In this document: piece by piece, positions 20,880 to 39,156 of the stretch
Position numbering within the stretch: the stretch's first letter is position 1
How the letters are laid out: the number at the start of each line of letters is the position of its first letter
IMG/VR virus record: IMGVR_UViG_3300042296_000700
Span: 1-64,000 of that record
Length of the DNA: 64,000 bases
DNA from: a virus
Strand: one strand, 5' to 3'
The notes under the pieces: generated by a model
What the model was told of the DNA's origin: nothing
Seen by the model: only the letters and a program-made list of their open reading frames with translations
Database searches by the model: none
Position numbers and translations under genes: made by a program

Positions 20880-22181
20880 TCAGGCAGGAGCGCTGTTGAA
20901 GGTGACTTCAACGAATGCTTCAGGGCGCTTGACTGCGAGAGCCAGACGCTGTTCTGCGAGCACAACGATTGCGTTGCGGACGAAGAAGTCTGCGTGCTGT
21001 TCGCTGATGCGGATGCTTGCCTGCTCACGGTCGTACAACTGTGCTCCCGTACCGAATGCGCCGATGAGACCCTTGCCTTCGGTCATTGCTGGGGTGTCCA
21101 CGACTGGGATGCGCCACAAGCGTGGCTCTCCGCCGAGGGCAACCGAAACGGCTACGAGGTACTGACCATTGTCGTCCTTTGACAATTCAATGTCTTCCCA
21201 ATCATTCGGGTGAAGAACAACGCCAGTTGGCTCGTAGTAAGCGAGGAACGACAAGGTTGCGGCACGACGAATCGCGTCAGCCTTGGTGTCACCTGCTGCT
21301 CCAGACGACCAAGAGTAATCCTGAACGCCAGTGGTGTTGAGGATTCCGAGGAGGTTTTCGCCAACTCCGTCACCGTTAAGGATTTGGGCATCTTCCTGAA
21401 GGCGCAAGCCGTAAAGAAGTTCGTTGTCAATGATGCTGCGCAATTGCGGCTCATCGGCGAGAACGTTACGGTGTGCTGCTTCCCAGTGAGCCAAAGTGCG
21501 AACAGGAGCCTGCTCACCAACGAATTGGAAAGACGACTGCGGCTTGGCAGCAAAGGCGTTACCACTACGCTCGGCAACTGCGCCTGCGTTGTTGGTGAAA
21601 CCAGTCATACGGAAGTATTCAATGACCGAAGCAGTCGTGGTACGGCTTGGGAACAAGTCGCGAACACGCTTGGTACGCATTGGAGGAATGACGATGGCAT
21701 CGCGCTGGATTGAACCAAACGAACCAGGGGTTCCCGTTGGCAATGCGCTGTACATGTCCTTGGTGCTCCAGAGACCCGTGACATCTGCACGGTTAACTTG
21801 GAAAGGAGCAGGCATGTTTGCGCCATTCTTGCCGCCGCCAAGAGCCTTGAATTCTGTTGAATCCAAGAACGCCTGTCCGAGGCTCTTTGCCGAAGCAGGT
21901 GCTTGACTCCACTGACCTTGAGCGGCAGCAGCCTCTGCTACTGAACCACCCTGTGGCTGTGAGCCCCATGCTTCAACATCGCGCATACTTTCAAGACCCT
22001 CAATGAGGCTCTTGATTTCGCGGATATCTCGCATATTGCTGTCAAATGCTGACTTCTGCTCGGATGAAACGATTACGGTGCCTTCTTCAATTTTGAATGA
22101 GTCGGCGATTTCTTTGTTGTTTGCCATCTTGGTGCGAAGCGCACCTTGAAGTTCAGACAATCGGTTTGCGTCAAAAGACAT
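20880..22181 (-). CDS. Major capsid protein (HK97 fold)
   Basis: 433 residues. The first about 115 are a helical, charged delta-domain-like region that a prohead protease would remove. The rest has HK97-fold features: RVRDLFPSRTTTASVIEYFRMTGF, an Ala/Gln-rich EQAPVRTLAHWEAAHRNVLAD segment, and RISEQHADFFVRNAIVVLAEQRLALAVKRPEAFVEVTF at the end. AGGAGTAAAA precedes the ATG. A following terminator and a 146-bp upstream gap suggest separate strong expression. Confidence 0.93.
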   Translation of the reverse strand: MSFDANRLSELQGALRTKMANNKEIADSFKIEEGTVIVSSEQKSAFDSNMRDIREIKSLIEGLESMRDVEAWGSQPQGGSVAEAAAAQGQWSQAPASAKSLGQAFLDSTEFKALGGGKNGANMPAPFQVNRADVTGLWSTKDMYSALPTGTPGSFGSIQRDAIVIPPMRTKRVRDLFPSRTTTASVIEYFRMTGFTNNAGAVAERSGNAFAAKPQSSFQFVGEQAPVRTLAHWEAAHRNVLADEPQLRSIIDNELLYGLRLQEDAQILNGDGVGENLLGILNTTGVQDYSWSSGAAGDTKADAIRRAATLSFLAYYEPTGVVLHPNDWEDIELSKDDNGQYLVAVSVALGGEPRLWRIPVVDTPAMTEGKGLIGAFGTGAQLYDREQASIRISEQHADFFVRNAIVVLAEQRLALAVKRPEAFVEVTFNSAPA

Positions 22182-22327: not shown

Positions 22328-23551
22328 TTAAATCTCTTGAGCATCTTCTAAGACATAATGTCGGGTGACATTTCTTGGTACCCCACGCCGCTCTGATGAG
22401 CCACGCAAAGAAACCTCTAGTTCCTTATAGTTTACACCATTCATTGTAAACGACTTTAATTTCTTGCCTTTGTCCTTCCAAGGATGTCCTTCTGGGAGTA
22501 GGTCATTATCTGTTGTATATGACGCTTTTGCGCTACCAGTCATCAACAATTTAAGGAAAGCATTGACACGACCCATTGCCCATTGGTTTCTATTCATGCC
22601 GGGTCGGTGGCTGACACTAAAAGCACCAGCACCGCGACGGTAAACAGATTTAAGCGCACGAAGATTAGTTTTTGACCAATCGTCTTTTTTCTTGTCTTTT
22701 ACAGCAGAGTTATGTTCGCGAACTTTGGTCACTAAAGAGTTCTCAACGCCAATAGTTAGCGAGATTTCACTCCCTGAACTTACAGAACTTGCCGAACCGA
22801 CACTATTCCGACTTGAGCCGATAATCTTGTCCTTCTTAGGCGCAGGAGTTTTTGCCCCAGATTTATCGTCAGTGATGACTTCTTCAACCTCGTCCTTTTT
22901 CTTGGGACGTCCATCGTTTCTGAGTCCACGTACTTTGTTGTAATCAGGGGATGTGGTGCACGGTAAGTAAACGATTTTGCCGTCACTTGCACGGTAACTA
23001 CGGATACCAATACAACCTAACTGACGTGCGCGTACACGGGCTGAATCTGGGTTCGTATAAACGTCAGGGTCTGTTGAACGAGAAACATAATTAACGAAAC
23101 CCTTAGCGTCCATCTGTTCCACTTCAAGCGTCTTGCCTGAAACGAGACCGCCACCAGAAAGAGTGTCTATAGAGAGCACCCCACGCTCACCCAGTTTTTC
23201 AAAATCATTCTTTTTCGGGATAGGTTGCCCATTATTGCAAATGCTGTAAACGGCAACACCGTTGCGCATTATCGTCCGTACCCCACCACACCTACGCTTT
23301 TTAGCCTCAAGCAATGCTTCAGCACGAGAACTAAATGTTTCTGTGCTTTTAGAGTCAGTAATAGCAATCTTGGCTTGAAAAGATGGAGTCAAAGTCTTTT
23401 CGTTACGCACTTTTTGTTGACCACGAATAGCGTCAGTCATCACCTCATGGCTGACACAGGGCATCCAGCGACCTTCGGCATCCTGATGAGCGCCGTAGCA
23501 CCCAAGCATTCTTGCCACGCGCATTGCCTGCTTGCGTGTTGCCGACTCCAT
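22328..23551 (-). CDS. Head-operon protein with repeated Cys-Gly modules
   Basis: 407 residues from ATG 23551 (GAGGTTTGATA upstream). Three short modules share the pattern C-x-G ... (D/N)G ... C: near LGCYGAHQDAEGRWMPC, RRCGGVRTIMRNGVAVYSIC and LGCIGIRSYRASDGKIVYLPC. A Ser/Lys-rich linker follows, then a C-terminal domain KSVYRRGAGAFSVSHRPG...QWAMGRVNAFLKLL of a type found in other phage head proteins. Function unknown; the position just before the capsid gene suggests a virion or assembly protein. Confidence 0.65.
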   Translation of the reverse strand: MESATRKQAMRVARMLGCYGAHQDAEGRWMPCVSHEVMTDAIRGQQKVRNEKTLTPSFQAKIAITDSKSTETFSSRAEALLEAKKRRCGGVRTIMRNGVAVYSICNNGQPIPKKNDFEKLGERGVLSIDTLSGGGLVSGKTLEVEQMDAKGFVNYVSRSTDPDVYTNPDSARVRARQLGCIGIRSYRASDGKIVYLPCTTSPDYNKVRGLRNDGRPKKKDEVEEVITDDKSGAKTPAPKKDKIIGSSRNSVGSASSVSSGSEISLTIGVENSLVTKVREHNSAVKDKKKDDWSKTNLRALKSVYRRGAGAFSVSHRPGMNRNQWAMGRVNAFLKLLMTGSAKASYTTDNDLLPEGHPWKDKGKKLKSFTMNGVNYKELEVSLRGSSERRGVPRNVTRHYVLEDAQEI

Positions 23552-23553
23552 TA

Positions 23554-23871
23554 TCAAACCTCAGGGTAGAGGATTTTGACTTTACGTGGAATTGAACTCT
23601 TGCCGTCTTTTTCTGTCAAATCGCCCATATAGAAACCGTTATTGGAGAACTTGACAAAAACCTTCTCTAGTTCTTTTTGGTTTTTCTTTTGGCTGAAATA
23701 CCAGACAGTTGAGTGAATTAGTTCGTCATCATCTGTTTCCTCATCAAGCGCATTCGCTATGAGAAGGACTTTACGACGCACCTCTTCAGGGAGTTTCATA
23801 AACTCCTCTTTGATGTGGGCAATGTTTTGAGGTGTTAAACCAATTTTTTTAGAAATTTTATTCTTCGTCAC
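23554..23871 (-). CDS. Hypothetical protein
   Basis: 105 residues with a GTG start inside the end of the giant gene upstream (14-base overlap). A helical N-terminus (IGLTPQNIAHIKEEFMKLP) and a C-terminus of strands. No recognised motif. It sits between two modular head-operon genes. Confidence 0.5.
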   Translation of the reverse strand: MTKNKISKKIGLTPQNIAHIKEEFMKLPEEVRRKVLLIANALDEETDDDELIHSTVWYFSQKKNQKELEKVFVKFSNNGFYMGDLTEKDGKSSIPRKVKILYPEV

Positions 23872-26800
23872 GTGGGTCCGCCTTAATCAAGTTCTTGTCA
23901 AGATAGAAAGTTCCGCTTGCTAGTCCCATGTTGGTTGCGAACCAGTTGCGCAGTTCTGTATCGCGGGCTCGCTTTGCTTCGCGTTCGTCGTTGCCGTAGG
24001 GGTTTGTTAGTGCATAAATAAAATCCATATGCCTGACGGAGTTTGGATTGTCTTTGTGTTTATCTATCAAATATTCAATGATATTAGCATCTTCTTCGTT
24101 TTTGATGATTGAAGTGTCGCCACGCCGAAAAGCGTTGAGTTGTGTATTCAAATTACTGACATGCGTGTTTGGGATAGGGGCTTCAAATCCAATGCGACCC
24201 CAAACATAAGGTCCATCGTCAGCAGTGCCTACAGTAATTTTTTCAAATCCAGCAGCCTTAGCATACATGAAAGCGTGCTGGTTGTAAACAGTTTGAATTC
24301 CATTGTTCTTGTGGTCGTTGCCACGAATAAACATTGTGCCGTTTCTAACCACACCTGCGTTGAGGTCTAAGTATCTACTACTGTCTCCCATGTTTGTCCA
24401 AGTGCCATTTGCGTTTTTTACCTCAAAATTAACGCTCACAGTGATTTGATTACCACTCAGACTGGCAGTTGCAACAGACCTGTATGTTTTACCGTTTGAG
24501 CCTTGAATTTCAGGGTGGGAGTACATTGCCTTAGCCCACGCTTCTAGTTGATTTCTTGCCGCTGATGCTTCTGGTCCACGTCCTTGTGCGTCGCGTAAAA
24601 GTTCTTGGCGTTTTTGAAGTGTCATTTCTTTCCATGGTGCGTTGCCTGCGCCGTATTGCCTATCTAGATGAAGAGCAAGTGTTCTTTGTCGTCCTTCAAT
24701 TGCGTCCTTCACACGCTGTTCTGCTTGACGTGCCAATTCAGGGTTTAGTGGTTCTGGTGCTGGCGCCGCAAGTGCTGCATCAATTTCCGCTTTCCGTTCT
24801 TTATATCTGTCGCGATGTGCAATTGCCACAATGAGGTCACGTTGCGCTACAAGGAAATTATCGTTTACTCCTTGTCCTTCGCGAGCGTCATAATTACGCT
24901 TTTTGGAAGCAACAACCTCATCTAGTTCGGCAAGACGCCGCTCATATGCTGGCAATATGCCGTCCCTATCGCGCATCCGCATGAGGGCGTCTCCGCCACC
25001 ATTGAAAGCACCGTTGAAGTCGGCATCAGCCCTGCCAACGCCGTCGTTCACAGCATTGTTTGCGCGAGATACGCGCTCGTTGACATTAGGCGCACCCTGT
25101 GCTTCAAAGAAAGCGCGCCATTGTGCAGGGGTGCGCCCTCTGACGTCATCGTCTCCACCAATACGGGTTGCTTGTTGTGCTGCCGCAGAAGGTTCTCTTG
25201 GAGCAGATGGCGTCCGACTTGGTTCTGGAGCATTTGGTGCGTCGTTGCCTTCAAGTTCTGCAGCACGACGCTTGAAAGCATTTCGTGTATCCATAACACG
25301 TTGAACTTGACCATTTTTGTCAATTACGTTTCTTGCTGCGTCTTCTTTGTCTTCATCTCCAGCATTACCAAAGGCGTCTGCCGCTTCACGAAGTTCTCTC
25401 CGTGCATCATCAAGCGCATTCTCCTGAACTTGGACGTTCGCACGAAGTTCAACAAGGTCACCACGCCTCCACGCAGCCATATTCTGAGGAAGTTGAACAT
25501 CGCGGTTTTGGATGATTCCTTCTTGAACTCGCCTTGCATAATCATCATCCATATTGTTGCCAAGCATGCGACGAAGTTGGGCTTTATCAAGACCGTCATC
25601 TGGAATATCAAATCCCATACGAAGGTCGGCTGGCACGCTACGAGGGTTACGCGCTGCTTCAACCTGACGCCTAGCCTGCTCTACAGTATTTTCAGCACGA
25701 GCAGGCTGTCCGTTGTTACGGTCATAAACCTCTTGCCATGCGTCCCTATAATCCTTGAGACCCCTTCTGACTTGACCAATACTAATTCTTTCACCGTCGT
25801 CGCGCTCAAAGAAATCCCTGTCAGCAATTTGTCCACGATTAATCGCATCCTCTAGACGGTCCCACCTCGCTTTAGAAATCGTAACTTTCTGGCGCGCTTC
25901 GTCTGCCTTGCTTCTTTTTCTAGCAGCACTGTCAGGGAAGTTGCGGTCGTCATTCAAAATCATTATTGGGTCATTGGGCAAAATGTCACGAAGTACGTAT
26001 TCCTTAAAATTGTCGTCATTTAAGACTTGGTTTAAATCACCTGCTCGTACACCACCCCCTGACGTGAATAGGCGTCCCCTGTTAGTTGCGTTATCGCTTT
26101 GACCAGCACGAGCAGGCTTGCGTGGGTCAGGAAGTGACCTCAACTGACGTTCTCTGCGAACGTCCGCAAGTATCATTCCAACTCTTGTTCTGTCTAAATC
26201 TTCACGCTGTATGTTGTCACGCTGGTTTTGAACTAGTTTTTCAAGTTCCAACAGGTCAGCGTCTTGAACTTGGTCAAGATTATTAAAGACATTCCTTTGT
26301 TCTTCATTAAACTCCCCAGCAAAGAAGTTGTCTTCAGGATTTTCTTGCATTTGGCGATTTATGCGCTTTGCGTCGCGTTCAACTCCGCCTAAACGACCAG
26401 CATTGTCGTCTCTTGTAATCGTGCGAGCAGGTGTTGTTTCGCGAGCGGCAGGTGCTGCGGATGGTTTGCGAGCCGCCGCACCTTCATTTTGACGAGAAGC
26501 AGTATCCCTATTATTGGCTGGTCGGCGACGACCCGCATTAGCAGGACGACGTGGAGCAGCAGGGCGAGGTCTTGCTGCAGGAGCAGGTGCAGCATCAACA
26601 TCAGTTCGTGCAGCACCAGGATTGTCAATTTCTCGTTGCATGCGACGTTCTTCAGATGCGCGCAGGTTTCGGCGTGGGCGTTTGGCGGCTGCAGGACGAG
26701 GGCGTGGGTTAGCATTATTTTGGCGACGACCGCGAGTTGCTTTACGTCGTTTCAACTCTGCCATTACTCGTTTGTAGTCGTCGCTATCCCTGCCATCGGT

Positions 26801-27499
26801 AGCGTTTTCTAACTCTTCACGCATTTCCTCTAAAACTTCAGTCGGTTCGGCTGCGAGAAGGTTGACGTCTTCACGTTCTTCACGAGCAGGACGAGCAGGG
26901 GTATCTGCGGCGTTGTCGGGAGTCAAGTCTCGTCCTCTGTCACGACCGCGAGGTGCTTGGGGAGCATCAGCGCGGCGAGCACGCCCTTCACGATTTGGCT
27001 TATCTGGGTCAACTACTTCGGCAAGACGACCCGCTGCTCGCTCAAGACGACCAGTAGGACGAGGCACTTCTGCGCCAACACGATTACGTTGTCCGCCTTG
27101 GCGACCTGTTAGGTCAAGAGCATCACCAACACGACCTGCGGCACGCTCAATTGCGCCTGGTGCTCCAGCCAAACGACCAGCCATACGGTCGTTACGTTTG
27201 CGTAGTTTTCGTTCGCGTCGGCGGTCACCAACATTTTCAAGACGTTCACCTAAATCAGAGATTTCATTAGCGAGACGGCGGGCTACACCCCAACCGCAGT
27301 TCCTGCCGAAACGGTCAGTAATTTGACCACCATAACGAGTTCCTACTGGACAACGAAAACCACCGCGGCGACTAGTCCCTGGTACTGCAAGGGATGGGTC
27401 AAATATTGCTCGTGCACGCTTAACTTCGTACAGCATGGAAGAGCGATTGCTTTCCGTTGTAAAGCGAAGAGCCTTATATGAAACTAGGTTTTTGTCCAT
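23858..27499 (-). CDS. Giant modular head-operon protein (RCPxG family) with GNAT-like end
   Basis: 1213 residues from MDKNLVSYKALRF (GGGAAG upstream). Residues 40-90 hold the shared signature GGFRCPVGTRYGGQITD (then C68) and a basic LERLENVGDRRRER-type helix. Several hundred residues of Arg/Pro/Ala-rich linker follow, then charged helical stretches. The last 200 residues match the GNAT-like region of the protein at 12526 (GFEKITVGTADDGPYVWGR), but the acetyl-CoA motif is not conserved (HKNNGI). Likely a virion component, possibly delivered to the host. No known name. Confidence 0.7.
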   Translation of the reverse strand: MDKNLVSYKALRFTTESNRSSMLYEVKRARAIFDPSLAVPGTSRRGGFRCPVGTRYGGQITDRFGRNCGWGVARRLANEISDLGERLENVGDRRRERKLRKRNDRMAGRLAGAPGAIERAAGRVGDALDLTGRQGGQRNRVGAEVPRPTGRLERAAGRLAEVVDPDKPNREGRARRADAPQAPRGRDRGRDLTPDNAADTPARPAREEREDVNLLAAEPTEVLEEMREELENATDGRDSDDYKRVMAELKRRKATRGRRQNNANPRPRPAAAKRPRRNLRASEERRMQREIDNPGAARTDVDAAPAPAARPRPAAPRRPANAGRRRPANNRDTASRQNEGAAARKPSAAPAARETTPARTITRDDNAGRLGGVERDAKRINRQMQENPEDNFFAGEFNEEQRNVFNNLDQVQDADLLELEKLVQNQRDNIQREDLDRTRVGMILADVRRERQLRSLPDPRKPARAGQSDNATNRGRLFTSGGGVRAGDLNQVLNDDNFKEYVLRDILPNDPIMILNDDRNFPDSAARKRSKADEARQKVTISKARWDRLEDAINRGQIADRDFFERDDGERISIGQVRRGLKDYRDAWQEVYDRNNGQPARAENTVEQARRQVEAARNPRSVPADLRMGFDIPDDGLDKAQLRRMLGNNMDDDYARRVQEGIIQNRDVQLPQNMAAWRRGDLVELRANVQVQENALDDARRELREAADAFGNAGDEDKEDAARNVIDKNGQVQRVMDTRNAFKRRAAELEGNDAPNAPEPSRTPSAPREPSAAAQQATRIGGDDDVRGRTPAQWRAFFEAQGAPNVNERVSRANNAVNDGVGRADADFNGAFNGGGDALMRMRDRDGILPAYERRLAELDEVVASKKRNYDAREGQGVNDNFLVAQRDLIVAIAHRDRYKERKAEIDAALAAPAPEPLNPELARQAEQRVKDAIEGRQRTLALHLDRQYGAGNAPWKEMTLQKRQELLRDAQGRGPEASAARNQLEAWAKAMYSHPEIQGSNGKTYRSVATASLSGNQITVSVNFEVKNANGTWTNMGDSSRYLDLNAGVVRNGTMFIRGNDHKNNGIQTVYNQHAFMYAKAAGFEKITVGTADDGPYVWGRIGFEAPIPNTHVSNLNTQLNAFRRGDTSIIKNEEDANIIEYLIDKHKDNPNSVRHMDFIYALTNPYGNDEREAKRARDTELRNWFATNMGLASGTFYLDKNLIKADPRDEE

Positions 27500-27506
27500 T
27501 AGATGT

Positions 27507-27755
27507 TCACTTCCCAAACAATTCGCGTACTTTTGCCTCATAATCGCCCGAATAGTCACCCTCGGTGATTTCGCTATAAGTGCTGCTGGTAATAATTTCA
27601 CCGATTTTAGGTTTCTTATCACCTAAAGAATACCATTCGTCAAACGATTCATCTTGCTTGCCGTCGCTATCAAACAGTTTTATGCCGTTGTCTGTCTCAA
27701 TGTAAACATTCTTATATGTTTTGTCTTCAGTTGAAGTTACTACTACGTATTTCAT
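27507..27755 (-). CDS. Hypothetical small acidic protein
   Basis: 82 residues, beta-strand-rich start (MKYVVVTSTEDKTYKNVYIE), with GGAAAAG before the ATG. Placed between two giant paralogous genes and could be a chaperone or partner for one of them, but this is only position-based. Confidence 0.55.
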   Translation of the reverse strand: MKYVVVTSTEDKTYKNVYIETDNGIKLFDSDGKQDESFDEWYSLGDKKPKIGEIITSSTYSEITEGDYSGDYEAKVRELFGK

Positions 27756-27767
27756 TTACTTTTCCAA

Positions 27768-30473
27768 TCAACGGGCTGTTATGAGGTTGTATATTTGTTC
27801 TGGTGTCAAGTTTAAGAGGTATTCCTGCCGAGCGGCAAGCCCATCAACATGGTCATTATGCCCTGGTGAAACGGATAACCCACTAGGGTCGCGCCTTGCT
27901 TCAACTGCATCTCTACCAAAGTCTGCGATATCTCGCTCGCGTTGCGCAGCACGAAGGGCATCTTGTGCTAATCCAATTTCTCGGATTACTTCGGAACGTT
28001 GGTCGTTGCGAAGTTCGGCACGCATCGGGTTGCGATTACCGCCTTGTCCATCCGCGAGCCATGTCCTGAATCCTGATTCGTTGGCATAATCACCTGATTG
28101 AAAATACCCTTGTCGCCCTCTGAACCCAAGTCCGTTATCAATTGGGACGAGATGCTTTTTGCCATTTTGCGTAACAAGAAAGTAGTTTTCGTTATGCCTG
28201 TCTGTGTTCATTATTAGGTAGTCAAGAAATGTTGCGCGAACCTTGTCCTTTACCACATTAGGGACGTCGTTACGACCACGTGGTTTGATAGGACTAGCAA
28301 CGTAGTTGCCGACATGTTCAAACATAATAGGACGAGCCTTTGCTGGAGGTTGACCGTTGAAAGGAGGCCCTGCAAATCTAAACTCACCGACAGGAAAGCC
28401 TAACCGAGCAGCAACATTATTGCCCACAATTTCGTTGAGGTCTTCATTTTTGCCAAACATAAGTTTCCCTGTCCTGCCCCTATGGTCGCCAGAGAATTTG
28501 ACAAAGAATTTTTTACCCGTTGCAGTATCTGTGAACAAATCTGCTGACCCGTTGATTCCGCCTCCTAGTGTGGATTTGGTGAAACGCTTTCCTTGACCCG
28601 AGTTGGCTTTCATTGCATTAAACAGGAAATCATCAGGTACGTCTCTAATGTCTCCGCCGTTGGCGAGGTGTAGGTCTGCGTCCGCTTGTACGTTGATATT
28701 TTTGTTGCCTTTAGGGATATGGCGAATGTCTGGGACACCGTTTGCAATATCACCTATTTTGTTGTCGTTTTGCTTTACCCTAATGTTTGGGGCTTTGCGA
28801 ACTCTGGAACCAGTGCCAGCATTACGTGGTGCTCGTGGTGCTCGCGGAGGACGAGCGGGAGCAGGAGCGGGTGCGGCTTGTTCTCCTAAAATTCTTTCTA
28901 GTTGAGCGATTCTCGCATCGCGATTAGCACCAGGAACATTCTGGTCACGGTCTTCTCGTAGTTGATTCAGTTCCTCACGAAGTCCTGCCTCTTCGGACGG
29001 GGTGAACTGTCGTGCTGCAGGTCTACGTGGACGAGGGGCTGCTGGTTGAACAGCATCTGGCTGGTCATTAGGGCGGGGACGACGATTCGCAGGACGGCGA
29101 CCATTTTGTGCGGCTGCCCCAGTACGACGTCCACGTCCTCCATTCGGGCGAGGACGGGCTGGTGCATTGCCAGCGTCAGGATTGCGGTCACGCCATGCTT
29201 GTTCTACGGCAGGACCGTGGAAACGTTCCCATTCTGAGCGACGCAAGAATCCAGCATTTCCACCTCCGTCACGAATACGACGAACCTCTGCTTGATGCTC
29301 ATTGTATTTACGTGTCTTGTATGTGTCTAGTGATTCCCGTGCACTTGGTGCTCCTGCAGGTACGGGAACTCCGCTCGTATTGTCTACGGGAACATTTCGC
29401 GGTCTTGCAGGGCGAGGATTTGCAGGACGACGCGGTGCAGCAGGACGAGGACGGTTGGCTGGCGCTACTGGGGCGTCGCCTGTTCGTGGAGCGCCAGGAT
29501 TGTCAATTTCGCGTTCCATGCGTCGTTCTTCTGAATCGCGAAGGTTGGGGCGACGACGAGGATTTCGTTGCGGAGCAGCAGGACGAGGATTGCGGGCTGG
29601 TGCTCTCCTGTTGCGGGTGGGCTTGTCGGGGTCAACAACGTCAGCAATTCGCCCTGCGGCACGCTCAAGACGACCAGGTTTCACGGTGTCTACCTGACCT
29701 GTGCGGTTGCGCTGTCCTCCTTGACGACCTCCCATACCAGTGAGGTCAAGCGCATCGCCAACTGCGCGTGCGCCTCGTTCAATTGCTCCGCCTCCAGCAA
29801 GGCGACGAGCCATTCTTTCGTTTCGTCGTGTTACGCGTCGTTCGCGTCGGCGGTCACCAACATTTTCAAGGCGTTCACCGAGGTCAGAGATTTCGTTAGC
29901 CAAACGGCGGGCAACTCCCCAACCGCAGTTCCTACCGAAACGGTCAGTGATTTGTCCGCCATAACGTGTCCCTACTGGACAACGAAATCCGCCACGGCGT
30001 TCTGTGCCTGGTACTGCTAGAGACGCGTCCCAAACTGAACGAGTGCGCTTAACTTCGTATGTGAAAGATGATTTGTTTTGGTCTGCAATAAAAGCGACAG
30101 CCTTGTACTGCACAGCATTTTTCCACGCTTCAACAGGAAATTCGGAGAGTTGAATATCCATAAGGGAGATAACTGGCAGAAGTTCTGCTGAAGCATCTTT
30201 CTTTTCAATTTCTTTAGACGGTTTTGTGAGTGAACGGTTCTTTAATTCTTCTACTACAGAGTCACTAACAGTTGTTTCAAGCGACATTGAATTATCAAGA
30301 GTTACGGTTAGTTCCTCTTTGCTAATCTTTTTCCCAGCGTATTCATCAGCCATCCACTTTGACCACGATTTTGCGGCTGCTACAACAGGATGAAACTGTG
30401 CACCGTCGGGAAGAATTTCAACGAGCGCGTACGGCTTGTTCTCTCTGTCTTTAATGAGAAATCGTGCAGCCAT
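27768..30473 (-). CDS. Giant modular head-operon protein (RCPxG family) with kinase-fold end
   Basis: 901 residues. Residues 160-185 repeat the signature GGFRCPVGTRYGGQITD...C, almost identical to the 23858 protein, followed by a similar Arg/Pro/Ala linker. Residues about 592-800 read as a HipA/PI4K-like kinase fold: Gly-rich loop LGGGINGSAD, FFVKF with Lys659, catalytic MNTDRHNENY (Asp758, Asn763) and metal-binding VPIDNGLGF (Asp779). All key residues are present, so it may be an active kinase. The location implies a virion protein. Target unknown. Confidence 0.75.
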   Translation of the reverse strand: MAARFLIKDRENKPYALVEILPDGAQFHPVVAAAKSWSKWMADEYAGKKISKEELTVTLDNSMSLETTVSDSVVEELKNRSLTKPSKEIEKKDASAELLPVISLMDIQLSEFPVEAWKNAVQYKAVAFIADQNKSSFTYEVKRTRSVWDASLAVPGTERRGGFRCPVGTRYGGQITDRFGRNCGWGVARRLANEISDLGERLENVGDRRRERRVTRRNERMARRLAGGGAIERGARAVGDALDLTGMGGRQGGQRNRTGQVDTVKPGRLERAAGRIADVVDPDKPTRNRRAPARNPRPAAPQRNPRRRPNLRDSEERRMEREIDNPGAPRTGDAPVAPANRPRPAAPRRPANPRPARPRNVPVDNTSGVPVPAGAPSARESLDTYKTRKYNEHQAEVRRIRDGGGNAGFLRRSEWERFHGPAVEQAWRDRNPDAGNAPARPRPNGGRGRRTGAAAQNGRRPANRRPRPNDQPDAVQPAAPRPRRPAARQFTPSEEAGLREELNQLREDRDQNVPGANRDARIAQLERILGEQAAPAPAPARPPRAPRAPRNAGTGSRVRKAPNIRVKQNDNKIGDIANGVPDIRHIPKGNKNINVQADADLHLANGGDIRDVPDDFLFNAMKANSGQGKRFTKSTLGGGINGSADLFTDTATGKKFFVKFSGDHRGRTGKLMFGKNEDLNEIVGNNVAARLGFPVGEFRFAGPPFNGQPPAKARPIMFEHVGNYVASPIKPRGRNDVPNVVKDKVRATFLDYLIMNTDRHNENYFLVTQNGKKHLVPIDNGLGFRGRQGYFQSGDYANESGFRTWLADGQGGNRNPMRAELRNDQRSEVIREIGLAQDALRAAQRERDIADFGRDAVEARRDPSGLSVSPGHNDHVDGLAARQEYLLNLTPEQIYNLITAR

Positions 30474-30475
30474 AA

Positions 30476-32677
30476 CTAAATCCCTACTAGTTTGTTGAAT
30501 TGGGTGTTTTGTTTTTTCAACGTATCTCTACGTGTCGTGAATAGTCTCTTGACCATTTCAAGGTGACGCTTTTCTGCATCAGAAAGCATTCCATCGGCAG
30601 TAAGCCTGCTCACATATTCATCCCAGTTGAACGCATCAATCTTCTTAAATAAGTCATCAACAAGACTTGCAAGCATTTTACGCTCTGATTCACTTAAAGA
30701 ACCGAAACTATCTTTATAAACACGAGCACCACGCTCATCAAGATAATCAGGAATGTCAATTTTGAACCGTCGTGCAATTTCGGCAGCGGTCAATCCAGCC
30801 ATATTTGACAACTCGTTACTACTTGGAATAACGGTAATCCGAGAACCATCGCGGACTGCAGAAAGTGTTGCAGGAGAGCGGTCACGACGGTCGGTCAAAT
30901 AATCGGCGATGGCTAAGCGAAGAATGTCTGCTTTAGGAATCTTGTCAAACTCCAGTGAAGTATCAAACCGTGTTTCGCCTTGACTGATGTCATTCATGAT
31001 GAGGTCACGCTTTGAGGCACTGCCACCAATTTTGGTATTAGGCATTTTGAGACCTACATGTGAAGCAATATCTGCGTACACCTTTTCCGAGACACTGCCG
31101 TACGTGACGGTTTCTGGAACTTGGAGAACAGATTTTCCGCTCCCTGCTTGATGCTTAATAATGCCAGTACCAAGCGGAGTTGACTTATAAGATTTGCTGT
31201 TTTTTAATGCGTCAGAAATGAATTCAGAAGGAATGTCAAACGGGTCTCCACCATTATCAAGCATTTTGATTGATTCAGCGAGCGTTGTCGGTGAGTCGTT
31301 CTTTGGTGTTGTGTCTTCACGGATAGTTTCCGTAGGAGCAACTGGCTTAATCTTGCCTTTACCGTTGGACATGAAAGTTTCGTAGACCCAACGGCGTACT
31401 TCAACTTTGCCCCCACGACCATTATTAACTGATATGAGGTCGTTGGGCTTGTCAATATTTGGGAACTTCTCGGTGTATTTGAACGCTCCGCCAGATGAGT
31501 TAGCAAAATCACGGATGTTGTTACCAACATCAAATTGGTCACTTTCACCAGCAACTCTGTTTAGTTGGCGTCCAAATTTACGGCGTTCGCCAACAGTTAG
31601 GTCACGAGCACGCTCAATTGTGAGGGTTGAACCGTTTGGCAGAACATACGTTACTTGCCGTACTGCTGCACCAGATAGGAGGGCAAGGTCGTCGCCAACA
31701 ATGTCTTTCGGTACTTGGATGGGGCGCACCATGACGCTTCCGTCCATGTCGGAGTTTCCACTAAACTTACGCAGCACAGAAGATGGAACGATTGGTTTCA
31801 AGACTACGGCGTCGCGCCGAATGAGTCGTCCCTCTGTTGTTGGTGCGCCAGTAACCGTGCGGATTGCGGCTTGTACTGCTTTTAAGCGTTCTGCTGGCTT
31901 ATCTGCGCCAGTTCTAGGGATTTGTGCCATGCGAAGAATTGATGCAGTGTTGGAAGTTGCTCCACCACTAACTACTTCGGAAAGGCTGTCTGCCTCTGTT
32001 CGTGGAAGTTTGGGTTTGCTGTTTAACCGCCGTGCTGCGCCGAGCGCAACACCGAGGGCAGAAGGAATATCAAACAACTGTGCACCACATGTTGAATAGC
32101 GAGAATCAGTAAATCGTCCACCAAACTGAAATCCTGCAGGACAACGAAATCCTCGTGTCGGTTTTGGTACAACACGGCGAATCTTGCCTAATCCTGGCAC
32201 GTTTCCACCAGGAACTAGAGCGGAGTAAACGCGGGAGCGAATCGGGCTGCGAATTCCTGATAGGTCACCAGGTAGGGCGATTGTGCCCGCTGCCTGAATG
32301 TTTTGACCAAGAGCGCCACTGGAACCAATCACACCAACTTTGACGCTTACCGATGAACCCATGCGGTTGCGGGTTGGCGTGGAGAATGCTGCTGCCTTAA
32401 AGTTGACGACGTTGCGTTCAGTCCCACTTAAATGTTGGTGCATTGCGAGGGACATTGATTTGACGTACGGTTCAAGCGGGCGCTTCTGTGCTGTAAAGTA
32501 TTCGCCGTTTTCAATACGTGTACGTGTTACCTGAGACTTTGTACTACTTGGGTTAAATGGAATCTTGATATAACCATCGCCGTCAACAACCGTACGAACA
32601 AAAGAACTGTCTTTACGCAGCAAAGGGCGCTGATGTCGCAAAAAACTATTTATTGAACTTTTGCTATCAACGCTCAT
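30476..32677 (-). CDS. Modular head-operon protein (RCPxG family) with pseudokinase-like end
   Basis: 733 residues. The signature is GFRCPAGFQFGGRFTD...C at 177-197. The segment 467-630 aligns by eye with the kinase-fold end of the 27768 protein: NGGDPFDIPSEFISDALK against NGGDIRDVPDDFLFNAMK, and ADYLTDRRDRSPATL against LDYLIMNTDRHNENYF. The Lys of VKF, the DRHNEN His/Asn and the DNG Asp are replaced, so catalysis is unlikely. It may be a structural or regulatory copy. Confidence 0.65.
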   Translation of the reverse strand: MSVDSKSSINSFLRHQRPLLRKDSSFVRTVVDGDGYIKIPFNPSSTKSQVTRTRIENGEYFTAQKRPLEPYVKSMSLAMHQHLSGTERNVVNFKAAAFSTPTRNRMGSSVSVKVGVIGSSGALGQNIQAAGTIALPGDLSGIRSPIRSRVYSALVPGGNVPGLGKIRRVVPKPTRGFRCPAGFQFGGRFTDSRYSTCGAQLFDIPSALGVALGAARRLNSKPKLPRTEADSLSEVVSGGATSNTASILRMAQIPRTGADKPAERLKAVQAAIRTVTGAPTTEGRLIRRDAVVLKPIVPSSVLRKFSGNSDMDGSVMVRPIQVPKDIVGDDLALLSGAAVRQVTYVLPNGSTLTIERARDLTVGERRKFGRQLNRVAGESDQFDVGNNIRDFANSSGGAFKYTEKFPNIDKPNDLISVNNGRGGKVEVRRWVYETFMSNGKGKIKPVAPTETIREDTTPKNDSPTTLAESIKMLDNGGDPFDIPSEFISDALKNSKSYKSTPLGTGIIKHQAGSGKSVLQVPETVTYGSVSEKVYADIASHVGLKMPNTKIGGSASKRDLIMNDISQGETRFDTSLEFDKIPKADILRLAIADYLTDRRDRSPATLSAVRDGSRITVIPSSNELSNMAGLTAAEIARRFKIDIPDYLDERGARVYKDSFGSLSESERKMLASLVDDLFKKIDAFNWDEYVSRLTADGMLSDAEKRHLEMVKRLFTTRRDTLKKQNTQFNKLVGI

Positions 32678-33128
32678 ACAGTGCTGTCCTTAGTCGTTTC
32701 TGCTCATTTACTACCCGACTATTTGTCTCAGCATTCAAATCAGTCGCAGTTGGTGACATCTTTTGTTTATTGCCATATATGTCTTCTGGCTTTACCCCTA
32801 CACTTGTAAGGATATCAGGGCTTATGGGCTTGGAGCGGGTAGAAAACATGGCTATCCAAGTTTCTGTATCCATCTTTTCTGAGCGTGAAGACATTTCCCA
32901 AAACTGCTTGTGGAACTCGGTTGTTTCTATTAACCGCCATTCGTCAAGTTTTGTTTGAATTCCGCCATCGTTTAGGTGAAAGTATAAAGCGTAAACTTTA
33001 ATCGGTGTATCCACGCCGCCCTCAGAAAAATAGCCGTCGTAGTTTGATGACTTTGGCTTTAGGCACGTATAAATAATTGCTTTGTCTACTACTGCGACTG
33101 GTATGGGGAATTCTTTTTTGTCAATCAT
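32667..33128 (-). CDS. Hypothetical head-operon protein
   Basis: 153 residues from MIDKKEFPIPVAVV, the ATG immediately after the upstream stop. The central LNDGGIQTKLDEWRLIETTEF reads as strand-helix. No known family. It lies between two RCPxG-family genes and may be a partner. Confidence 0.6.
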   Translation of the reverse strand: MIDKKEFPIPVAVVDKAIIYTCLKPKSSNYDGYFSEGGVDTPIKVYALYFHLNDGGIQTKLDEWRLIETTEFHKQFWEMSSRSEKMDTETWIAMFSTRSKPISPDILTSVGVKPEDIYGNKQKMSPTATDLNAETNSRVVNEQKRLRTALYER

Positions 33129-33129
33129 C

Positions 33130-35499
33130 TTACGAAACACTTTCCTCGTCTGGCGTTGACGGAGCGGACGCCCATCGGATTTGTTGCTGAACGTCTTCAA
33201 GCAACTGTTTACGCACGCGTGCCCCCCAAATGTCGGTAATGCGGTCTCCAGCCTTGCCACCGTCATATTTTGTTGGGTCTCCTAAATCAAGACCATCATA
33301 AGAACCAAAAATGACTTTAGCATTCGGAGCCTTTTCGGCGACCAATGAAGTAATTCGCTCCATTTCCATGGCAGATATCAAACCATTGAGTTTTAACTCA
33401 TCTCTCATTGCAGAAGCCTGATTCTTGGTATTATCTGGTTGAGCGTTTGTTACCTTCCATCCAGAAATTTTTGCACGTGCAACTTCTATCTCGCCCATTG
33501 TGAAACCTGCGGCAAGCAACTGTTCAGTAGAAAGATGCTGGTCTTCAATTTTTTGAATCAATTCTGCGCCATCAACGCCGTTGGGGTTAAACTGGTTTTT
33601 GTAAGTTGGGAACAATTTCGTTGCATCAAGTTTGATTTCCTTAATGTCTTGAGCGGTGAATCCTCCAAGTATTTGTGATTCCGTAAATTGACCATTTTGT
33701 TCTAGTCCACTTTTATTCCAGTTAACAAAATCTTGCGTAACGTGGGTTCGTAATAGGCGATTGATGTTGTCGTTCATGTCGCTGCTGTCCAAGTGACCAG
33801 CGATTGATTCAATTAGTTCCTCGTCTGATGCGCCAACTGCCGCAGTGCCTCTTGCTTGATTAAGGATGCTGTCCTTATGGTGAATTGTTGTCCTATCGGC
33901 AACCTCTGGGTGAAGTACAAATTCCATGTCTCCATAGCCGATTCCATTTCCAGCAAATGCACCTACAAACTCGTCAGTAACCCCTGCTGCACCCCTACCA
34001 GGAATGGTCAAGTAGTGGTCTGTGGTGAATAGTTCCATTCCTTCTTTTGCGTTGTTCTCATCTGTGATTCGTTTTAACTCGTCGTCCCAGAAAGTAAAGC
34101 GACTAAAACCGTATACAGGGCGAACACCAGAACCGTGTACTGCTCCGACACTTGCTTCATATTGTCCACGGCTGCCAAGTAGTGATGACATAGCATCACC
34201 AACCTTGGCATCAGTTTTGACTTCCATCGGAAGGTAGCCATCTGTTAAATATGCTTCTAAATGTTGCCCTTTAGCCCACACTGAGGCTTCAGGTTTGCGG
34301 GCTTTTGCAATCGTTAATGCAGTCTGTTCTATCGCTGCAATTACTTCATCATCAGTGTGCGTGAGGATAAATTCATGCGTTTTGGGGTCTATAACTTTGT
34401 CAAATGGAAGTCCATTTATGTCGGTCTGGATGCCTGATTCAATCATGCTGCGAAGGTCGGAAACCTTTTCTGCCATCATTGTCCTGCGTTGCGTCTGTCG
34501 TTCTTTCAGAGTCAAAATGGCTTTACCTGCATAGAAGCCAGAATCATTTATTGCTTTAATGTCCTCATCCGTAGGCTTGCCCCACTTCGGAGCCTTGGCG
34601 AGAACCTCGGCATTGAAGTCTTTGATTTGTGCAGATGTTGCGTGCTCAGCACTTGGAAGTCCGAGTAAGTCTGAAGAATCGGTAAGTTTCCCAACAGCAC
34701 GGTCAACAGCAGTGGGCTCGTTAGCGTTAATGCCTCTAAAACGTTCTTTTGTTGACTTAATAACATCGTTGAATGAACCTTGCATCTTTTCTGAAAGTTC
34801 GCCACCCTTAATACGGAGACGTTTCATTCTTTCGGCAAATGCCTCCTGATATTCGTCAACCTGTTCTTTGGTTTTGTTCCACTTTTCTTTAGCGTTTGCT
34901 AACGCCACCTTGACAGGCACCATGCCACCAGTAACAAATATGCTCGTCAACATTTCAATACCTTCGTTGGTATCAGAGTCACCACTGGCACCAGTGAAGT
35001 CATTTATCATGCTGCCAATGTCGCCGAAATTGCCAAAAAAAGTGCCCCAGTAAGCCGTAGCCCAAGCAAGTTTTTTCACTATCGCTTTTTGTTCAGGAGT
35101 TAAGCGTCGCTTGTCTTTTTCAAGCGTGTCATCAATATCAATACCAAGCGCCCTGAACTCTGCAATAAGTTTAGGTGACGTCTTGCTAGGCACGAGACTT
35201 GATGCTGCTTGGGCGGCAGCATTCGCCACTGTTTCTGCACTTGGAACCATACAGTTAGACATCTGCATGTCGGTAAACTGGTTAGCATTCGGCGTTCCTG
35301 GCGGACACCGCATTTTGCCATTCTCGTCAATAATGATTCCAGCACGACGAGCAGCATGCTGTCCCACTGAAGGAAGTTTATCGTTGTCGCGAACGGTAGG
35401 TCCAAGGAAACCTTTCACCATTACACTTGTGCGGACAACAGAAACTGCTGACGTGAAACCGTCAATACGTTCGTTCGCTATGTCAGGGAGTGACCTCAT
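33130..35499 (-). CDS. Modular head-operon protein with divergent RCPxG motif
   Basis: About 789 residues (ATG 35499; GTG 35505 with GGGAGG five bases ahead is equally possible). It has a shorter form of the shared signature, KMRCPPGTPNANQFTD then C, at residues 67-87. A helical Ala-rich zone and a hydrophobic part (FVTGGMVPVKVAL) follow. The latter half holds VGAVHGSGVRPVYGFSRF and YGDMEFVLHPEVADRTT, which look like an enzyme core but which I cannot name with confidence; an ADP-ribosyltransferase-like toxin domain is one possibility. Confidence 0.6.
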   Translation of the reverse strand: MRSLPDIANERIDGFTSAVSVVRTSVMVKGFLGPTVRDNDKLPSVGQHAARRAGIIIDENGKMRCPPGTPNANQFTDMQMSNCMVPSAETVANAAAQAASSLVPSKTSPKLIAEFRALGIDIDDTLEKDKRRLTPEQKAIVKKLAWATAYWGTFFGNFGDIGSMINDFTGASGDSDTNEGIEMLTSIFVTGGMVPVKVALANAKEKWNKTKEQVDEYQEAFAERMKRLRIKGGELSEKMQGSFNDVIKSTKERFRGINANEPTAVDRAVGKLTDSSDLLGLPSAEHATSAQIKDFNAEVLAKAPKWGKPTDEDIKAINDSGFYAGKAILTLKERQTQRRTMMAEKVSDLRSMIESGIQTDINGLPFDKVIDPKTHEFILTHTDDEVIAAIEQTALTIAKARKPEASVWAKGQHLEAYLTDGYLPMEVKTDAKVGDAMSSLLGSRGQYEASVGAVHGSGVRPVYGFSRFTFWDDELKRITDENNAKEGMELFTTDHYLTIPGRGAAGVTDEFVGAFAGNGIGYGDMEFVLHPEVADRTTIHHKDSILNQARGTAAVGASDEELIESIAGHLDSSDMNDNINRLLRTHVTQDFVNWNKSGLEQNGQFTESQILGGFTAQDIKEIKLDATKLFPTYKNQFNPNGVDGAELIQKIEDQHLSTEQLLAAGFTMGEIEVARAKISGWKVTNAQPDNTKNQASAMRDELKLNGLISAMEMERITSLVAEKAPNAKVIFGSYDGLDLGDPTKYDGGKAGDRITDIWGARVRKQLLEDVQQQIRWASAPSTPDEESVS

Positions 35500-35754: not shown

Positions 35755-37110
35755 TTAGATTCCTTCCTCAATTGTGAGCATTTCAAATTCAAGCAAGTCT
35801 GCAAGGAGTTTTGTTGCTTCTGCATCTTCTGCTGACTTTTCGCCTTCAGCCATCTCTTCTTTAGGCTTTTCGGCTTCTTCGTCCCAACTGTCAGGAATCA
35901 TGTCTTCCTTGCCAAGTTCCTTAGCGCGCTTCTGGCAGTGCATTTTCACTTCATCAGGGTTGGAAGCCCGACCGACAGCCATGATTGCATTCTTCAAGTC
36001 TTCTTCATCCTTGATTGGATAAGAGCCATCAGGCATAGCCATTCCGCCCTTAGCCATTTCCATGCGCTCTTCGTCGCCATACATTGCTTTCAATGCGAGG
36101 TCAGCGACTTCTGCGTCAATGTCTTCTGCTTCACTGGCGTCATATTCATCCCAACCAAGGACTTCACCGTCAAGGCTAACGAACACGTCGTATGACTTTC
36201 CGTCGTCTCCTTCAACTTCAACAGCGTAAGCGTCGTAGCCTTCAAACATGTCGGCATCAACACTGATGACTTCGCCTTCAATGCTCTTAACGGCGATGTC
36301 TGCTGCTTCGTTGAATGAAATAACTCTTTCTCCAGCAATTTCAGCGACTTCTCCAAGAACTTTTTCGTTGAGGAGATGCCAGCCCATTACTTCGCCAGAT
36401 GTTCCGTCAAAGAAAATTTCTACTGGCTTGCCATCTTTGCGTTGAACGTCAACGATGAAAATGTCTGTTTCGTCTGCGTATGCAGAGTCAAGAACTTTTC
36501 CTGAGAACATGTCTTCTGCGATGCCTTCAACTTCAAGTAGTGATGGCATGTCTGCTTCTGAGGCACATCCACCAGGGCATTGTGCACAAACTTGGGAATT
36601 TCCAGCAAGCATTTTGCGTTCAAATGCGCAAACAAATGCGTCGTCATCAAATTCGCCAGACTTTACGCCCATGGTTTCCATGCGCTTCTTGCGTGCCTTC
36701 TTGCGCTTTGCAATAGGGTCGGAATCCAGTTCGTCTTCAACGTCTGATGCCATGCTCTCCATTGGCGACATGCCACCTTTTACTTCAGGAGTTTCTGCTG
36801 TGACCCAGTCTTCTGACTTGGCAGCAATGGTTTCTGCGGCAGCACCACATTTCCCACACACCTTCTGACCAGGCTTGTAACCGCACTCAGAAATAGGTAG
36901 AGCCTTAGCGCACTTGATAGTACCGTCGGCGAGTAGTTGAACAATCGGCTTATCTGCCATTTCGTCTTTCTCCTTGTATTGCATGGTTGATGTTAGGCAG
37001 CCACTTGGTTTTGTGCATCCAGAACATGGTGCCATGCGTTTTTCGCCTGAGACCATGCAACTGTATTTTGTTGAAACTTTGGGTAATCCGTTTTGTGAAG
37101 TATAACTCAT
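35755..37110 (-). CDS. Acidic head-operon protein with PepSY-like repeats (scaffold candidate)
   Basis: 451 residues, strongly acidic. The N-terminus has two cysteine clusters (APCSGCTKPSGC; KVCGKCGAA) and a third, CAQCPGGC. Two PepSY-like repeats follow (VEIFFDGTSGEVMGW; YDVFVSLDGEVLGWDEYD). The C-terminal MAMPDGSYPIKDEEDLKNAI with its RAKELGKEDMIPDSW tail is a module often attached to phage prohead proteases or scaffolds. Its place directly after the protease suggests a scaffold or protease-linked role. Confidence 0.6.
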   Translation of the reverse strand: MSYTSQNGLPKVSTKYSCMVSGEKRMAPCSGCTKPSGCLTSTMQYKEKDEMADKPIVQLLADGTIKCAKALPISECGYKPGQKVCGKCGAAAETIAAKSEDWVTAETPEVKGGMSPMESMASDVEDELDSDPIAKRKKARKKRMETMGVKSGEFDDDAFVCAFERKMLAGNSQVCAQCPGGCASEADMPSLLEVEGIAEDMFSGKVLDSAYADETDIFIVDVQRKDGKPVEIFFDGTSGEVMGWHLLNEKVLGEVAEIAGERVISFNEAADIAVKSIEGEVISVDADMFEGYDAYAVEVEGDDGKSYDVFVSLDGEVLGWDEYDASEAEDIDAEVADLALKAMYGDEERMEMAKGGMAMPDGSYPIKDEEDLKNAIMAVGRASNPDEVKMHCQKRAKELGKEDMIPDSWDEEAEKPKEEMAEGEKSAEDAEATKLLADLLEFEMLTIEEGI

Positions 37111-37125
37111 TGTTGCACTCCTATA

Positions 37126-39156
37126 TTACCCGTTTATTGACTTATATCCATTAACTGCCGCATTTATTGCTTCAGTTGCTGACGTGGTTAGACCGCTCAA
37201 ATGAATGCCTTCATCATCAATATAACTATGGATGTTGTGGTATTCAAGCACTGGGTCAATTAATGATTTAACTTCAAACATTTCGTCAATTGCTAACGAG
37301 ATTGTTGCTGAGTCGTATTTGACTTCAACTTCTACCCCGCCAGCGGAACTGATGACTTCTTGGAGCATTACGAGCATGTCTTTGAGTTTCTTCAAGTTAC
37401 GGTTATTGAGTACGCGACCAGCCTTGGTCTCCATCTCATAACTCAATGACTTTTCAAGAGCAGTCATTGCTTGAATCATGCCGATTGCTGGCTTGTCAGT
37501 TCCGCACGACCCTGCGCCTCCGCAGCCGCATCCGCAATCACCATGGTCGTCATCGTCATCATTGCGACGAATGTGGACTACCAAGGTGCGACCTTTGCTT
37601 TCGTCATCAGATTCACCGTAGTGTTCCCAGTTTGACTTCTCTCCAATGAATTTAACGAATTCTGGCTGAGCATCAAGGAACTCCTTGAGATACATCATTG
37701 CCTTTTCCTCAACTTCTTGAGGAGGAACGCCGCTCAAGTCATCTTCGCCTTCGCCCAGTCCCATGGTTTTGCCATCGGGAATCTTGTCAAGACGTGCACT
37801 CCATTCGCTGTCATTCCAAATTGAGCCATTAGAAACGCCGCGAATCTTGTTACGGCAGTTCTTCATGCCGGGGTGATGGCATCCCTCGTTCGGCCAAAGT
37901 CCAGTTGTTTCATGGTGAAGCCAAGCACAAATGTTGTTCAATGGATATAGTTCTGGGTGGTCTGCAAGGATTACTTTGCAACGCCTAAATCCGCCTGGTT
38001 TCTTCATGATTGGACGCCAATACTTAAGCAATGCCTCAAGGTTTCCGCGACGAGGACCGTATCCACGCATAACATCGCCAGTAACCCGTTCTTGGGGGAG
38101 GGCGTCTGGAGGAATTGGTGCCTTGACTTCTTCTTCAACCTCTCCAAGTTCACTAGATTCTTTGCCACTCATGCAGCCACACTTGCAGGCTTCGTACTTT
38201 GGCTTTACGCCTTCTGGAACCATCGGGTTCTTGTCCATATCGTAGTTTGACTCGTATGGATTCTGACCTTCATTGTGGTTTGCTGCTGGATTCTTGCCCG
38301 CTTCGTTTTCGTTTGCTGGGAGGTAGACCATCTGTGGTCGGACGGCAACTGGTGTGCCAAACATGAACTCGTCACCGTCAAAATGGTAGGTGACGCGCAT
38401 TGTCGTCGGTTCTTCGTTGCCTTTTTTGTGGTCAAAAATGACCATGTTCTCTTCTGCTGAACGGACTCGTACGGCACCACCGAAGCGTGTTGCGAGGGCG
38501 CGACTAAGGTTCGCCATGCGACCCATTGCAGGGTTCATTGCTGGCACACCACCGTCTTCGCCACGAGGACCAGAGTAGTCAGCCTCGTTATTGTCTGCTT
38601 CGTAGATTTTTACACTTGGCTGTGTTTGTGCGTGCTTGATAGAGATTGTTCCAGTTAACTGGTTTGCTCCGTGGAGAACAGGGCTGACTTCGTAGAGTTC
38701 TACCTCTTTGAGAATGTTCGCTTGGCGCGATGAGTCATATTCAGCATCAAGGGTTTTGTATCCGATAGACCATTCTTGTTCTGTGCCAAAGAATGAGATG
38801 TCAAGGAATGCTTGTTTGCCGCGCTCAGATTTCAAGTTGAATTGGACGCGAGCGTAAAGTCCACCAATTCCAGCACGCTTCATTTTCATTGGCAGGCGCG
38901 GGTCGTTTGGGTTTACTTCGTAAATTTCAATAACTTTGCCGATTGGCTCGTTCCAATTATGTCCCCAAACAACTCGTGGTTTACGGCGTTTGAGACTTTC
39001 AGTAAAGCAGCCTGGTGCACAAATGTCACCAACACCGTCTTTGTTGCCAAGACCAGCAACGAAACATTCAACTATGCCCTGCGCCTCGTCTACATTGATT
39101 TGACCATTGTCAATCGCTTTGTATTCTGTTGCAGTGATTTCTTGCAGTTGCGGCAT
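37126..39156 (-). CDS. HK97-type prohead protease with long C-terminal extension
   Basis: 676 residues, about three times the usual protease length. Residues 1-180 are the protease: IVECFVAGLGNKDGVGDICAPGCF, catalytic His in RVVWGHNWNEPIGKV and Ser in EQEWSIGYKTLDAE. It then has a YGPRRGNLEALLKYWRPIMK...GFRRCKVILADHPELY module with several Cys and His (HHETTGLWPNEGCHHPGMKNC), a CGCGCGGAGSCG stretch and a helical end. It should cleave capsid delta domains during head maturation. The extension could act as scaffold. GGAG precedes the ATG. Confidence 0.88.
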   Translation of the reverse strand: MPQLQEITATEYKAIDNGQINVDEAQGIVECFVAGLGNKDGVGDICAPGCFTESLKRRKPRVVWGHNWNEPIGKVIEIYEVNPNDPRLPMKMKRAGIGGLYARVQFNLKSERGKQAFLDISFFGTEQEWSIGYKTLDAEYDSSRQANILKEVELYEVSPVLHGANQLTGTISIKHAQTQPSVKIYEADNNEADYSGPRGEDGGVPAMNPAMGRMANLSRALATRFGGAVRVRSAEENMVIFDHKKGNEEPTTMRVTYHFDGDEFMFGTPVAVRPQMVYLPANENEAGKNPAANHNEGQNPYESNYDMDKNPMVPEGVKPKYEACKCGCMSGKESSELGEVEEEVKAPIPPDALPQERVTGDVMRGYGPRRGNLEALLKYWRPIMKKPGGFRRCKVILADHPELYPLNNICAWLHHETTGLWPNEGCHHPGMKNCRNKIRGVSNGSIWNDSEWSARLDKIPDGKTMGLGEGEDDLSGVPPQEVEEKAMMYLKEFLDAQPEFVKFIGEKSNWEHYGESDDESKGRTLVVHIRRNDDDDDHGDCGCGCGGAGSCGTDKPAIGMIQAMTALEKSLSYEMETKAGRVLNNRNLKKLKDMLVMLQEVISSAGGVEVEVKYDSATISLAIDEMFEVKSLIDPVLEYHNIHSYIDDEGIHLSGLTTSATEAINAAVNGYKSING

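Follow-up and report, generated by a model that had tools for sequence, protein, structure and literature searches.

Large head-operon proteins of a phage combine a shared two-cysteine module with exchangeable predicted enzyme ends that are tracked by small downstream genes

What are four large proteins doing between the prohead protease and the capsid gene of a virus, if they share a short cysteine signature and end in different domains? The window studied here, the first 64 kb of a virus record of 107,127 bases, carries such a head operon on its minus strand (Table 1). An earlier note on this DNA had read the signature, RCPxG...TD...C, as part of a constant N-terminal module with exchangeable ends. 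We consider it likely that these carriers form a phage polymorphic effector system, in which the N-terminal part is conserved, the enzyme ends are exchanged together with a cognate small gene, and the products are loaded and delivered.

Table 1. Head-operon features of the window, in their minus-strand order
Feature	Coordinates	Strand	Evidence	Role
Portal protein with C-terminal MuF domain	39574..41775	-	PF04860 9e-51, PF04233 1e-7	context
S78 prohead protease	37126..39156	-	PF04586 1.8e-11; PHROG head maturation protease	context
Cys-rich PepSY protein, between protease and effectors	35755..37110	-	PF03413 2.3e-8	context
P5, carrier with RCPPGTPNANQFTDMQMSNC module, no assigned C-terminal domain	33130..35499	-	tip cassette common to L002, L025, L028, L029	
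P6, 153-aa small ORF, cognate partner of P5 tip	32667..33128	-	homologue distribution	
P4, carrier (RCPAGFQFGGRFTDSRYSTC module) ending in a degenerate kinase domain and lacking a partner ORF	30476..32677	-	hhalign to kinase profile	
P3, carrier with RCPVGTRYGGQITDRFGRNC module, Arg/Pro/Ala linker, intact HipA/PI3K-like kinase	27768..30473	-	PF00454 9e-7	
82-aa small ORF, putative cognate partner of P3 kinase	27507..27755	-	position rule in 39/39 P3-type kinases	
P2, carrier (RCPVGTRYGGQITDRFGRNC module, nearly identical to that of P3) with a long basic linker and a GNAT-like end	23858..27499	-		
105-aa small ORF, partner of GNAT tip	23554..23871	-	GTG start overlaps P2 stop	
P1, head-operon protein without RCPxG module	22328..23557	-	PF12518 1.8e-12 (two stretches), PF19141 1.4e-7	context
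Major capsid protein, HK97 fold	20880..22181	-	PF05065 1e-46	context

The gene order was kept on a single strand across the loci that span this interval (portal, S78 protease, PepSY protein, P5, P4, P3, P2, P1, capsid), and the four carrier slots did not change their order within the stretch from prohead protease to capsid, where the earlier note had placed the four proteins. The nearest cultivated relatives of the portal were mostly actinophages, for example the portal-MuF fusion of Streptomyces phage Gilgamesh, and the host is therefore probably an actinobacterium. The S78 protease continues C-terminally in a long stretch containing Cys/His-rich segments (RRCKVILADHPELYPLNNICAWLHHETTGLWPNEGCHHPGMKNC), which in other contigs is its own gene after P5. 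P1, the remaining large protein of the interval, carries repeated DUF3721 two-Cys motifs and DUF5824, a repeated Cys motif different from RCPxG; it may be another modular head-operon protein, and its homologue in L125 (L125:13285-20139) is 2,285 aa long.

Six-frame translation of the window returned the signature in exactly four ORFs, P5, P4, P3 and P2, the same four that had been reported. Using an HMM seeded from these ORFs and their relatives, we found the module in 245 non-redundant ORFs from 210 sequences of IMG/VR, one module per ORF; chance occurrence was excluded on the basis of these two counts. The scan of IMG/VR with P3 as query gave 21 loci, and those with the three module types gave the best 80 of 99, 66 and 49 loci. 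Both cysteines were invariant, with the spacing C-X17-C in 244 of 244 modules, and the T and the D were conserved in 96% and 94%, respectively; each family also has a conserved Lys ahead of the module. The earlier note had described two of the modules as nearly identical in protein and similar in DNA; those of P2 and P3 share 87% DNA identity over 39 codons and 83% over 66 codons. Moreover, sequences between module types exist, such as WRCPPETPNGGQFTNRMGLGC, and support common descent of the types. The structure prediction suggested earlier for the Cys module gave a small ordered island in P4 (pLDDT 74-79), flanked by disordered linkers, and a region of lower confidence in P2 (pLDDT 41-61); a module fold common to all four proteins is supported at the level of sequence. 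A search of 50,697 cultivated phage records yielded no significant or close match to the module. The search for bacterial or prophage copies gave nothing with a P4-type module and, with a P5-type module, three MAG contigs, which are probably viral. The module was also compared with a wider phage motif, HPRD..GRF (Gilgamesh gp48), as a possible variant of it; the matches reached only E about 1-9 and are a lead only.

The C-terminal tips were more diverse. The kinase fold proposed earlier, the end of P3, was retained and refined to a PI3/PI4-kinase/HipA-like kinase: besides the PF00454 match, the domain matches PDB 4kqa (3.5e-6, PI3K/PI4K), and G, K, E, DRHxxN and the metal-binding D are invariant in 22 relatives, all of its catalytic residues being conserved. 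P4 ends, as had been proposed, in a degenerate kinase (hhalign 99.4%, E 4e-21, to the kinase profile), whose model matches the folds of CtkA, CotH, HipA and PI3K and in which key catalytic residues are missing. For P2, the GNAT-like end was upheld by the structural model and its fold matches, with no family match at sequence level: the core of the tip model has a pLDDT of about 90, and the top fold matches were almost all acetyltransferases (E 1e-3 to 0.08), which together support a GNAT fold. The P2 ORF itself reaches a GTG at 27622, an ATG near 27499 being the likelier start. The tip of P5 in the window contains a weak DUF3626-like motif, and the profile match was not significant; as its comparison with the L062 tip, itself DUF3626, was not significant either, that assignment was rejected.

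Relatives carry at least five types of enzyme tip behind the same P5 N-terminus. These include a kinase, RNase_T (4.9e-14), a SaSAS-like alarmone synthetase (4e-14), DUF3626 in L062 (1.9e-10) and an HExxH protein; the tip of another contig holds a domain with the residues VIDGHHRW, which we take to resemble ParB-like domains. Judged from such matches and motifs, the carrier ends are enzymes. Carrier length varies from about 220 to 3,500 aa. The P5 kinase of L043 (L043:5423-8514) and L054 is a separate ORF of 253 aa overlapping the carrier end, by gene splitting or a frameshift, and P5 of L042 (L042:6357-7016) and L052 (L052:4271-5017) has shrunk to 220-249 aa, a module without a tip, these being natural tipless versions or split genes. 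The post-module linkers of P3-type carriers are strongly basic (+9.6 per 100 aa vs +0.6 in the first 150 aa of other ORFs), a charge that would suit a head filled with DNA, without proving it.

Nearly all carriers with an enzyme end are followed immediately by a small ORF, which often overlaps the stop (ATGA); the three of these in the window had been missed by the earlier note. Such an ORF was present just downstream of 52 of 53 P3/P2-type genes and 37 of 43 P5-type genes, and not of P4. By tip, it accompanied 39/39 P3-type kinases, 11/11 GNATs, 9/9 P5 kinases, 8/8 HExxH tips, 5/5 copies of the window P5 tip, 2/2 DUF3626 and 2/2 of the alarmone-synthetase class; exceptions are L091/L095 and L042/L052, which lack it, and L043/L054, in which the kinase is split off. 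P4 is usually followed at once by the next carrier, as it is in the window; a few contigs have a longer gene there, and one, L086, has an ORF of 152 aa that begins much like the P3 N-terminus. The lack of key catalytic residues and of a partner in P4 fits the idea that partners are needed only for active tips. The partners contain no recognisable inhibitor domain, and the P3 N-terminal domain, considered as a fused partner, scored below 3% in hhalign against all 27 partner families and was rejected as such.

In compact phage genomes a gene is often followed by a small one, and the presence of a small ORF alone is therefore weak evidence. The argument rests on tip-specific pairing and joint exchange. 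Tip clusters and partner families corresponded nearly one-to-one in 92 pairs (Mantel r 0.889; maximum 0.057 in 1,000 permutations), and for kinase tips alone r was 0.848 vs 0.239 under permutation. Separated by slot, the tip-partner correlation was 0.96 (P5) and 0.95 (P3/P2), that between the tip and the next gene, i.e., the N-terminus of the next carrier, was 0.32 and 0.37, and that between the carrier's own N-terminus and the next one was 0.85 and 0.94. The small ORF family thus tracks the enzyme tip, not the carrier's own N-terminus or the next gene. Close homologues of P6 were confined to the window, L002, L025, L028 and L029, and these contigs and no others carry the window P5 tip; the family of the 105-aa ORF was found exclusively behind GNAT-type carriers (15/15). 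Exchange could be followed directly. L029 and L030 have P5 N-termini that are 87% identical and next genes 95% identical over 337 aa, with unrelated tips and partners; L029 and L025 share a tip (95%) and a partner (77%), with flanks of only 68% and 51%. A second case involves L060/L059/L014. Tip and small ORF are therefore inherited and exchanged as one cassette, in the manner of bacterial cassettes of toxin and immunity genes. Considering that adjacent DNA recombines jointly, linkage alone could yield part of this co-inheritance, though the next gene does not follow. The partners of P3-slot and P5-slot kinases are homologous (hhalign 94-97%), so cassettes appear to move between slots too. The varied P5 tips and these swaps bear out the constant module with exchangeable enzymatic ends, and the exchange and pairing, read from sequence, agree with the polymorphic-toxin-like design that had been suggested.

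How would such proteins be used? In its predicted parts the arrangement has the anatomy of a polymorphic toxin, with a head-operon protein as the carrier. That the carriers are packaged and injected, that they are toxic and that the small ORF inhibits them is inferred. Because of the head-operon position, packaging is the most economical route. The carriers would be loaded into the prohead via the constant N-terminal region, with the Cys microdomain as the likeliest docking element; the small partner would bind and restrain (or chaperone) its own enzyme within the producing cell, and the enzymes would enter the next cell together with the DNA, where their targets may be host proteins, nucleotides or rival elements. 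A common cleavage signal, part of the earlier proposal, found no support. We built a PSSM from 24 capsid delta/mature junctions and scored it against control ORFs; P3, P4 and P5 did little or no better than the controls, no sites stood out above them, and a common S78 protease site in the carriers is not supported. A likeness between the P5 N-terminus (FDANxR) and that of the capsid was dropped, as capsids in general do not conserve it. The tyrosine integrase profile PF00589 matched nothing in 15 records over 100 kb, and of the serine recombinase profiles PF00239 was missing from the window's own record and PF07508 from 14 records over 100 kb, records that may be incomplete; by this gene content the phages are likely virulent. 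A bolder form of the proposal, plausible but tentative, is a virion-delivered effector-immunity arsenal in apparently virulent phages, with four carriers per particle, docking through C-X17-C and cassettes traded for phage competition or host takeover.

Against the effector system stand the partners' lack of a recognisable inhibitor domain, the failure to show a common cleavage site, and that immunity has no obvious use for a virulent phage. The small genes might instead be dedicated loading chaperones or adaptors for the tips, and the enzymes ordinary host-takeover effectors like T4 Alt that require no neutralisation. This alternative, which we judge possible but rather unlikely, gains from the virulent appearance of the phages (no integrase or recombinase match in 14 records over 100 kb or in the window's record) and from the missing partner behind the degenerate kinase, and partner-tip specificity is equally compatible with chaperones. 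However, chaperones usually recognise the carrier or a secretion signal, whereas the partner here ignores the constant region and depends on the catalytic tip, which favours inhibition over chaperoning; the alarmone synthetase and metallopeptidase-like tips moreover look like those MuF toxins for which immunity proteins exist (PMC5576092, PMC12226406). As a variant of the effector system, the tips may be weapons between phages, disabling the cell or a co-infecting genome while the cognate partner protects its bringer. An arms race between related phages would be expected to leave rapidly exchanged cassettes and cognate small genes, and no integrase was found; nevertheless the case for it is indirect, and a partner gene in a structural operon, expressed late, would protect late. 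We hold this variant to be unlikely. Least probable is a mainly structural role inside the head, as core or scaffold, for carriers whose C-termini evolve fast and whose enzyme domains are relics or act in assembly. Their position between protease and capsid, the degenerate kinase retained in P4 as a conserved domain and the long disordered basic linkers speak for it; against it stand kinase active sites that are invariant across highly divergent tips, replacement of tips by unrelated enzymes without drift, and the wide range of carrier lengths.

If the effector system is real, phage-borne polymorphic toxins would extend beyond MuF and probably beyond lysogens, a short portable candidate head-loading tag would be at hand, and dozens of new enzyme/partner pairs would become available for study. 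It also raises the question why an integrase-less phage keeps a specific partner gene for each possibly injected enzyme.

Cultivated phages contain look-alikes. Gilgamesh encodes a hypothetical protein of 4,624 aa (L210:19679-33553) between portal-MuF and protease, with an 89-aa ORF (L210:33563-33832) starting 10 bases later; the N-terminus of the large protein (EVKAARRKWNPALHPRDSKGRF) is similar to the part of P3-type carriers that lies upstream of RCPxG, without the Cys. Gordonia phage Phendrix has the same layout (gp66-gp67, L214:13944-18639), a giant protein directly after the portal and then an 84-aa ORF.

Among known systems, T4 Alt and other injected head proteins are head-packaged enzymes that enter with the DNA, a route only proposed for the carriers. 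T4 Alt is one invariable enzyme, for which neither exchangeable ends nor a cognate small partner are known, and the carriers, for their part, gave no demonstrable common N-terminal targeting or cleavage signal. HipA, HipT, CtkA and the PI3/PI4-kinase fold share fold and active-site motifs with the kinase tip and the degenerate P4 domain, but here the kinase is fused to a head-operon carrier and its small downstream partner is not a recognisable HipB or HipS. The statement that no system of this form had been described was too strong, since MuF toxins (PMC5576092) and polyvalent proteins (PMC5512222) are of the same kind on other carriers. The polyvalent proteins of phages and conjugative elements are predicted to be packaged and, like the P5 proteins here, of which some reach 3,500 aa, are very large; their many domains include RNase, metallopeptidase, GNAT, ART and kinase. 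In the available text a cognate gene regularly placed behind each tip is not among the features described, nor is an RCPxG module, and the kinases belong to another group, without a C-terminal lobe (PMC5512222). MuF polymorphic toxins, for which a packaging route was already proposed, have a small ORF directly downstream of the toxin gene in 89.4% (PMC5576092), as the carriers do, and in both the carrier gene lies in the packaging/head module and the C-terminal enzymes vary, those of MuF including metallopeptidase, ADP-ribosyltransferase and RelA-like domains (PMC5576092; Apk2, PMC12226406). Known MuF toxins, however, have been reported from temperate phages alone, which nearly always have a single muf gene each (PMC5576092; Apk2 subfamily, PMC12226406), whereas RCPxG carriers are four per genome in fixed order, with HipA/PI3K-like kinases dominant and no integrase found; P2-P5 have no MuF match, and MuF here sits on the portal, without a toxin. 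With polymorphic toxins as a class the carriers share a constant N-terminus, which would serve as the trafficking signal, with variable C-terminal tips, a downstream small gene that is tip-specific by position and pairing, and cassettes of tip and partner exchanged by recombination (L029/L030/L025, L060/L059/L014).
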